From: Vulcanimicrobiota bacterium
Lineage (GTDB): Bacteria; Vulcanimicrobiota; Vulcanimicrobiia; Vulcanimicrobiales; Vulcanimicrobiaceae
DNA: 6,410 nucleotides
Assembly: GCA_030040695.1 (NCBI GenBank)
Contig: JASHTE010000106.1
Span: 1 to 6,410 of the forward strand
Direction of reading: 5' to 3'
Below the pieces are notes generated by a model, which ran no database searches, had not been told where the DNA came from, and was given only the letters and a program-made list of their open reading frames with translations. Both the position numbers and the translations under genes were made by a program. This document shows positions 5,145 to 6,410 of this stretch, in pieces (the stretch's first letter is position 1; the number at the start of each line of letters is the position of its first letter).

Positions 5145-6410
5145 AGAACGCGCCGCCGAGCTGCGGGCTCGGCTCGAAGAGGCGAACGTCCGCTATTACG
5201 TTCTAGACGCACCGACAATCACCGATGCCGAGTACGACGCGATGCTGCGAGAGCTCGTCGAGCTCGAGGCGGCGCACCCGGAGCTGCGCACGGCGGACTC
5301 GCCGACGCAGCGGGTCGGCGCGCCCGCGGCAGAGCGTTTCGCACCGTATGAACACGCCTCGCCGATGCTCAGCCTCGCCAACGCCTTCGACGATGCTGAG
5401 CTTCGTGCGTTCGACGAGCGTGTGCGCAAGCTCGCGGACTCGGACGTTGCGTACGTCTGCGAGCTGAAGATCGACGGCCTTGCAGTCTCGTTGCACTACC
5501 GTCGGGGCCTCTTCGAGCGCGGCGGCACACGCGGTGACGGGCGCATCGGCGAGGACGTGACGCCGAACCTGCGCACGGTCAAGAGCATCCCGCTCCGTCT
5601 GAAAGGCAACGCCTCCGTTGAGCTCGAGGTACGCGGTGAAGCCTACCTACGCAAGAGTGATTTTGCGAAGCTCAACGAGGCGCGCGAAGCCGCCGGTCTC
5701 GCGGCCTTCGCGAATCCGCGCAACGCCGCTTCGGGTGGTTTGCGGCAGCTCGATCCACGCCTCACCGCAGAGCGCCACCTTTCCTTTTTTGCTTACGGCC
5801 TCCTCAGTACCGCACGCGGTTCCTCTCGTGTCATCCCGAGCGAAGCGTCTGAAGACGCTGTCATCCTGAGCGTAGCGAGCGAAGCGAGCGGAGTCGAAGG
5901 ACGAGGGGCCGACACTCAATGGCACGCATTGGCAGAGCTCTCCAAGCTCGGCTTCCATGTCAACGAAAACGTCGCGCGTTACGAGAACATCGACGGAGTT
6001 ATCCGTTATTGCGCGCAGTGGGAGGAGCGGCGCGACGAGCTCGACTACGAGATCGACGGCGTCGTCGTGAAGGTCGACGACGTCGCGACGCAAGAGCGGC
6101 TCGGCTCCGTTGGGCGCAACCCGCGGTGGGCGATCGCCTTCAAGTTCAAGCCGCGTGAGGCGCGAACGAAGCTCAAGGAGATCGCGATCAACGTCGGGCG
6201 TACGGGCACGCTCAATCCCTATGCGATTCTCGAGCCGGTGCACGTCGGCGGTGTAACGATCTCGAACGCGACCCTGCACAACGAAGATTACGTGAAGAAC
6301 AACGATATCCGCGTCGGTGATACCGTGCTCGTGACGCGCGCCGGCGACGTCATTCCGCGCGTCGTCGGGCCGATCGTCGAGCTGCGCACGGGCAAAGAGC
6401 GCATCTTTCA
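5119..6410 (+). CDS. ligA: NAD+-dependent DNA ligase, C-terminus beyond window; carries an in-frame repeat insertion
   Basis: LigA seals DNA nicks in replication and repair using NAD+. The frame is open from a stop at 5110-5112 to the window end; GTG 5119 is the only sensible start and gives the normal distance to domain Ia (VNASKSRPEERAAEL, then RYYVLDAPTITDAEYD with Tyr26, Asp36, Tyr39 and Asp40 for NMN binding). In the adenylation domain, ELKIDG holds the AMP-accepting Lys117. Arg138 is in TRGDG, Glu174 in EVRGE, and Arg201 and Arg209 in NPRNAASGGLRQLD. Asp313 and Lys318 are in IDGVVVKV, and Lys342 in WAIAFKFK. The OB-fold begins at INVGRTGTLNPYA and runs through RAGDVIPRV. Zinc-finger, HhH and BRCT domains must lie past 6410. 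Numbering is 1-2 ahead of E. coli LigA up to Arg209 but 28 ahead from Asp313, so about 27 residues are inserted after FFAYG (residue 227). That stretch is the repeat at 5822-5908. The gene overlaps uvrA by 26 bases, suggesting coupled translation. Confidence 0.97.
5822..5908 (+). repeat. putative dispersed repeat element carried in frame within ligA
   Basis: Two related units TGTCATCCYGAGCGWAGCG lie at 5829-5847 and 5859-5877 (17 of 19 bases identical, 30-base period). The second unit continues with a 9-base near-duplicate (GCGAGCGAA, then GCGAGCGGA) and ends in GTCGAAGGACGAGG. Imperfect 8-base inverted ends, CCTCTCGT (5822-5829) and ACGAGGGG (5901-5908), frame an 87-base stretch, which is 29 codons with no stop. 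From memory, motifs beginning GTCATCCTGAGCGAAGCG and ending GAAGGA are widespread as short multi-copy intergenic repeats in several bacterial phyla; I cannot confirm copies elsewhere in this genome. The encoded residues (about 236-263) contain a visible peptide duplication, VIPSEASE then VILSVASE, unlike any LigA motif. Exact ends are approximate. Confidence 0.7.
5844..5859. repeat. short perfect palindrome between the two repeat units
   Basis: AGCGTCT and AGACGCT are exact 7-base inverted arms around a 2-base centre (GA). The palindrome sits precisely at the junction between the two TGTCATCC units inside the ligA insertion. It is too tight to form a good hairpin in RNA without opening the inner pairs and has no following T-run, so it is not read as a terminator. 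It is more likely part of the structure or the assembly scar of the repeat element. Confidence 0.5.

Follow-up and report, generated by a model that had tools for sequence, protein, structure and literature searches.

Introduction

The repeats dealt with here invite comparison with several described families of small palindromic elements, first of all the CGTC-tagged REPs. According to excerpts of the survey by Di Nocera, De Gregorio and Rocco (Di Nocera et al., 2013; PMC3733652), these elements bear an unpaired CGTC tag, with TGTC and CCTC as accepted variants, a stem of 8-9 bp that opens with two complementary A/T positions, and a loop of 4-5 bases; CCA follows the tail in most of them and they come without a dedicated transposase. 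They form inverted pairs with a near-constant spacer, the dimers with tags outside (HH) predominating and those with tags inside (TT) being rare, and the same-strand (HT) arrangement is negligible. Within the same excerpts, intragenic REPs are reported for numerous species, with repair and tRNA-synthetase genes as frequent hosts and with a case in a DNA ligase of O. terrae, recB of X. campestris and of X. oryzae has REPs at roughly one site, and RPE-4 and RPE-6 are counted as CGTC REPs.

Other systems share part of these traits with the present case. The Rickettsia palindromic elements (RPEs) are likewise palindromic repeats lying in frame inside many genes, but they belong to a different lineage, and the likeness noted here is one of residence in genes. 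The GTAG REPs with RAYT transposases are also short palindromes with an unpaired tetranucleotide tag, dimers and intragenic units, whereas the tag is TGTC here (60/60 units) and no Y1 transposase was found in the draft genome under study. As with the Xanthomonas recB REPs, different repeats occupy one gene site in related species, except that LigA, IleRS and UvrA, several genera and both orientations are concerned here. The PARCELs, as far as the consulted extracts of their description go (Roske, 2010; PMC2996958), are palindromic DNA coding for protein repeats too, but they form 25-residue tandem domains in ORFs without assigned function, in contrast to inserts in core enzymes. Since REPs within genes are already known, one of them in a DNA ligase of O. 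terrae, the ligA case presented below is of a known kind. Regarding the phylum Vulcanimicrobiota, a search of the literature by phylum names gave no report of such repeats among the matches listed, and the literature covered, subscription journals being mostly outside its scope, held no report of the same loops being filled repeatedly across genera.

Repeat units in the ligA reading frame

The window, i.e. the whole stretch of DNA analysed, is a contig of 6,410 bases. On its forward strand lie a gene which we take to be uvrA (2178-5144) and, downstream of it, ligA (5119-6408), coding for the N-terminal 430 residues of a NAD-dependent DNA ligase; the ORF is open from a GTG at 5119 to the contig end, past which the gene continues. 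The two nearest named LigA records are MAGs of Candidatus Eremiobacterota (phylum Vulcanimicrobiota), at 85% and 73% identity; the source, an uncultured bacterium, likely belongs to this phylum. If used, the GTG start would make ligA overlap the end of uvrA, whose stop ends at 5144, by 26 bases. LigA is usually essential in bacteria, and the KxDG motif and the adenylation-domain fold are present, with K117, D119 and G120 intact, just as an earlier reading of the sequence (hereafter the original prediction) had put it for the catalytic motifs.

Between FFAYG and TQWHAL, the ligA frame runs through two units of a dispersed repeat (TGTCATCCYGAGC ... GTCGARGGA), the first truncated and the second complete, which together span 5829-5902. 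Unit 1 (5829-5858) consists of a TGTC-tagged 5' part (TGTCATCCCGAGC) and a small perfect palindrome, and has no tail; unit 2 (5859-5902) is complete, with the 5' part TGTCATCCTGAGC (5859-5871), an inner stretch and the tail GTCGAAGGA (5893-5901), both units being read on the forward strand. The string TGTCATYCYGAGCGWAGCG is matched exactly at 5829-5847 and 5859-5877, which bears out the two units with a 30-base period of the original prediction; shuffled windows gave on average 0.03 matches to it (up to 3 mismatches) and 0/200 shuffles held two. The palindrome with 7-base arms at 5844-5859 is indeed perfect (AGCGTCT at 5844-5850, GA, AGACGCT at 5853-5859), a DNA folding model making of unit 1 alone a hairpin of 5 bp, and the imperfect inverted ends CCTCTCGT (5822-5829) and ACGAGGGG (5901-5908) pair at 7/8 positions. 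A default-setting repeat search of 5700-6000 found nothing; the pattern search recovered both units. The element had been delimited by these ends as 87 bases (5822-5908) with no stop: the frame is open throughout and the repeat is present, but its bounds have to be redrawn, the repeat proper covering 5829-5902.

Aligned with E. coli LigA, query residue 228 corresponds to 227 and residue 262 to 234, which makes 27 additional residues, the number already proposed. The extra loop as a whole, at about residues 230-262 (5806-5904, forward strand), begins some 8 residues upstream of the repeat (5806-5828), these also being extra relative to the loops of the same genus. At a slightly wider range, the bases 5800-5828 upstream of unit 1 are weakly similar to the flanks of three genomic copies (L043, L041 and L032). 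In an AlphaFold2 model of LigA, residues 234-261 have a pLDDT below 50, the rest being confident, and they fall between a strand (222-230) and a helix (267-276), at the place where an exposed loop had been anticipated; the added residues are predicted to belong to a surface loop of the adenylation domain that is flexible. Counted from FFAY to TQ, the loop has 39 residues in this genome; of the seven other members of the genus, six have 7-10 residues and the last, G002, has 18 and bears its own unit.

Since loops do vary, an ordinary divergence in length with a chance likeness to the repeat has to be considered, the loop running from 7 to 15 residues in 31/38 LigA loci, those without the motif. 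This reading is scarcely credible in view of the two exact units set against a shuffle mean of 0.03, of the 45/47 bases shared with another genomic copy and of the enrichment of the motif in the loop over its flanks (see below); that further copies exist in this genome is in itself evidence to the contrary.

Dispersal and anatomy of the repeat

The genome of origin (G000) is a draft of 1.90 Mb in 342 contigs, 76% complete. BLAST with 5815-5915 returned at least 47 matches in it at E<=1e-3, the query included (40/75 first-look candidates were scored). A head pattern allowing up to 2 mismatches gave 95 matches against 2 in the reversed control, and a stricter degenerate pattern of the 5' part (TGTCAYNNYGAGCNNNGCG) gave 71 against 0. 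The ligA copy is identical at 45/47 bases to one on another contig (L032), and its layout, a head and then a complete unit, is a common array layout of the genome. Within the genus, strict-pattern counts range from 3 (G005) to 143 (G001), and at least one match is present in 65/99 genomes of the family. The many further copies expected by the original prediction are therefore there, and the picture that it held to count against itself, a lack of other copies together with a conserved loop of equal length in relatives, was not seen. Regarding transposases, PF01797 (Y1_Tnp, Y1/RAYT) was the sole family searched: it had 0 matches in the 76%-complete draft G000 and 0 in the 98%-complete G031, and was found in 1/8 genomes of the genus and in 16/60 genomes overall. 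A protein search with LigA residues 229-270 gave 15 candidates, 0 of them at E<=10, and so no sign by this route of the peptide outside close relatives.

The anatomy of the repeat was read from 52 stretches around copies (L031-L082), which hold 60 complete units by the exact pattern. Head stands here for the TGTC-tagged 5' part and tail for the GTCGARGGA part, these terms being used in the opposite sense in the excerpted text of Di Nocera et al. (2013; PMC3733652). Although left free in the search, the base preceding GTCA is a T in 60/60 units, i.e. the tag is TGTC. Head base 9 and tail base 6 form C-G in 32/60 and T-A in 28/60, with 0 mismatches, and the next two head-tail pairs are complementary in 53/60; this covariation of positions 7-9 with their partners owes part to common descent within a small number of subfamilies. 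When the stem is drawn by hand, its first A stands opposite the C of the usual tail GGAC, and G.A mismatches occur at two inner positions. The gap from head to tail (GAGC to GTCGA) measures 3-26 bases, being 19 or 21 in 37/60 units, and the bases after the tail are CCG in 26/60, CGA in 8/60 and CCA in 6/60.

The covarying stem positions, along with the suggestion in the excerpts of Di Nocera et al. (2013; PMC3733652) that REPs may act as transcribed RNA hairpins, would fit a repeat that acts as a nucleic acid, namely as an mRNA hairpin or a DNA site tuning ligA expression, the residues being a by-product. This role appears improbable given the mid-gene position, the lack of any Rfam match in the window at gathering scores, and a folding energy no better than that of shuffles: z was -0.32 for RNA folding of the stretch and, for DNA folding, +1.38 on one strand of the 87 bases and +1.19 on the other, +2.03 with unit 2 by itself and -1.49 with unit 1 by itself. 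Consequently, the stem rests on the covariation. Nor are complete units unusually open to translation, with 3.95/6 open frames as against 4.13/6 in shuffles.

As to arrangement, the 52 loci contain 23 same-strand arrays, of which 19 have extra 5' parts and a single final tail, 2/23 three full units and 2/23 5' parts only, a repeated tail occurring in 0/23; polarity was judged on multi-element arrays only. Isolated elements also occur in these loci, namely a single tail-like match in 38 stretches, many of these matches looking fortuitous by eye, and a single 5' part in 22. Complete units less than 100 bases apart form 7 inverted pairs (L033, L044, L051, L054, L055, L063 and L067), all with tags outside and 0 with tags inside, their spacer being 22 bases in six and 21 in one. 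The pair at L054 lies in frame inside the gene of a Lhr-type helicase.

Like CGTC REPs, the repeats are NGTC-tagged imperfect palindromes forming inverted pairs with tags outside and a near-constant spacer, and both have units in repair and tRNA-synthetase genes, DNA ligase included. The differences concern the inner length (a loop of 4-5 bases vs. 3-26 bases from the 5' part to the tail), the bases that follow the tail (CCA mostly vs. 6/60, with CCG in 26/60) and the same-strand arrangement (negligible vs. 23 polar same-strand arrays, 2 of them of complete units). Owing to these three misfits, the units are not filed here as members of the CGTC superfamily, even though tag and dimers fit. Relatives also have units of the GAGCYTGTCGAA type, whose loop is short when judged by eye and which seem to resemble the published CGTC families more closely.

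The LigA loop across relatives

LigA was searched in 98 genomes and then in 99 genomes of the family, the genome of origin being part of both sets, and the loop was read in 91/98 LigA loci (77 + 14, with 7 unread). Repeats occupy it in 7/91 loci from three genera and are absent from 84/91, so that relatives without the stretch, which the original prediction called for, are by far the more common. The carriers are, in genus g1, G000 and its sister G002, the latter with one unit; in genus g25, G054, G031, G126 and G123, all with TCATGGTGAGC heads, which a TCATCCTGAGC unit follows in G031, G126 and G123; and in genus g33, G122, where the repeat is in reverse orientation. The loop repeats of the carriers belong to different subfamilies. 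Six genomes of the genus of origin have a loop without repeat, as do G124 and G125 of g25. Thirteen other LigA loops with a 9-base tail-like match only were set aside as chance.

In 38 LigA loci, the motif matches amount to 23 in 1,749 loop bases as compared to 18 in 67,647 flanking bases. With exact motifs only, 11/38 LigA loci are positive; in one of these the motif lies at the C-terminal end, in three others it lies in other loops. A LigA tree of 37 rows, from which the loop was left out, requires by parsimony at least 5 presence changes, in which gain and loss are not distinguishable. Apart from the loop considered here, a second one (IPLRL...LEVRGE) has repeats of the same type in G004, G055 and G107 (L009, L014 and L211), from three genera, and a possible third, before YVCELK, in G058.

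A draft of 342 contigs calls to mind an assembly artefact, two contigs being joined through a repeat, repeats being typical points of misassembly. Such a join is very improbable here, as frame and homology continue on both sides and as G002 and four g25 genomes have repeats at the same loop. Much more in line with these data, and very probable in our opinion, is that a dispersed palindromic repeat with a TGTC tag has a copy in ligA, likely inserted in frame, which extends a predicted flexible loop by about 30 residues and likely spares the enzyme.

Other host genes

The expectation that copies would also reside inside other ORFs was borne out, in-frame residence being recurrent in the genome of origin, where units lie in the genes of an IleRS-like protein, LeuRS, PurL, the Lhr-type helicase and an amino-acid kinase. 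ORFs with units at their ends only were left out of these in-frame insertions, and codon-usage scoring served only to choose 10 ORFs for Pfam. A GAF-domain ORF (below the Pfam cut-off) and an ArgC-like ORF also hold units and were left out of the count. Similar repeat-coded segments occupy one and the same position in LeuRS of G000 and LeuRS of G001, and PurL of G000 and G002, the only two read, have repeat-coded segments too.

Three further proteins were followed across the family, each in the 30 best-scoring of 99 genomes and not in a random draw. In IleRS, the loop before WTTTPWT has repeats in 13/30 loci (L221-L250) with one mismatch allowed, from a query that contained an insert and may favour long loops; they occur in both orientations and several frames. 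Exact motifs only are found in 10/30 IleRS ORFs, one of them at the C-terminal end. In the IleRS-like ORF of G003 (L225), an in-frame TAG stands near the loop and may be an error, a pseudogene or a case of readthrough. UvrA, chosen as a negative control, proved to be positive: the loop before ELTFSEAF has repeats in 5/30 loci (L272, L276, L277, L292 and L297), UvrA of the genome of origin having none. The loop was unreadable in 7/30 under the anchor and all 30 ORFs were scanned, giving an exact motif in 9/30, 5 of them in that one loop; the remaining 4 (GAGCTTGTCGAGCT in three and the same string in the fourth) correspond to conserved codons and were set aside as chance. As for the presumed HAD-like protein of the window, repeats are present in 0/30 loci.

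The recurrence of repair and tRNA-synthetase genes as hosts, here as well as in the excerpts of Di Nocera et al. (2013; PMC3733652), and the occupation of the same LigA loop in three genera raise the question of a domesticated peptide serving LigA, by partner binding or regulation, whose retention would be adaptive. The six of six forward cases in the LigA loop that share one reading frame (GTC ATN NNG AGC) could hint at selection for the peptide; this hint is weak because of the shared ancestry within g1 and g25. Domestication nevertheless seems rather unlikely, considering that 84/91 LigA loci manage without the repeat, that number and type of units differ between related genomes, that the reversed unit of G122 encodes another peptide and that the repeats in the IleRS loop lie in both orientations and are read in several frames.

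Proposed mechanism and perspectives

As six relatives from three genera have the same general type of repeat in the LigA loop, it is likely that repeat DNA has found its way repeatedly into enzymes which are themselves likely essential. Under the reading preferred here, that of a dispersed repeat accepted in frame, the repeat would be copied around the genome and insertions into genes would survive only if in frame and in loops tolerating extra residues; such limits on survival would explain why repeats come to occupy a few particular loops of LigA, IleRS and UvrA time after time. Site-specific targeting of the DNA was considered as well: the insertion points differ by a few residues, which makes tolerance by the protein look likelier. 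A complete unit may then gain further 5' parts on its 5' side, for which slippage of replication at the hairpin is a plausible cause, and the resulting peptide would most likely be tolerated rather than useful. The element may be mobile; its copies could also be old. More tentatively, and at a lower level of confidence than the origin of the ligA stretch itself, palindromic repeats lacking a transposase of their own may, in this bacterial family, colonise the same surface loops of LigA, UvrA and IleRS repeatedly and in either orientation, growing by polar copying of the tagged 5' part only, so that host replication or repair would go on supplying new segments to essential enzymes and the loops would be landing sites that come to differ in length and sequence from one sister species to the next.

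That proteins can contain small repeats was already known from REP-rich species, Rickettsia among them. Several entries at the same core-enzyme loops in related species provide in addition a natural series, i.e. empty, one unit, several units and reversed unit, which allows testing how repeat DNA becomes protein sequence and whether such insertions are neutral. This series also bears on how REPs without a known transposase spread, for which the polar arrays and the constant spacer of 21-22 bases in inverted pairs offer concrete handles.
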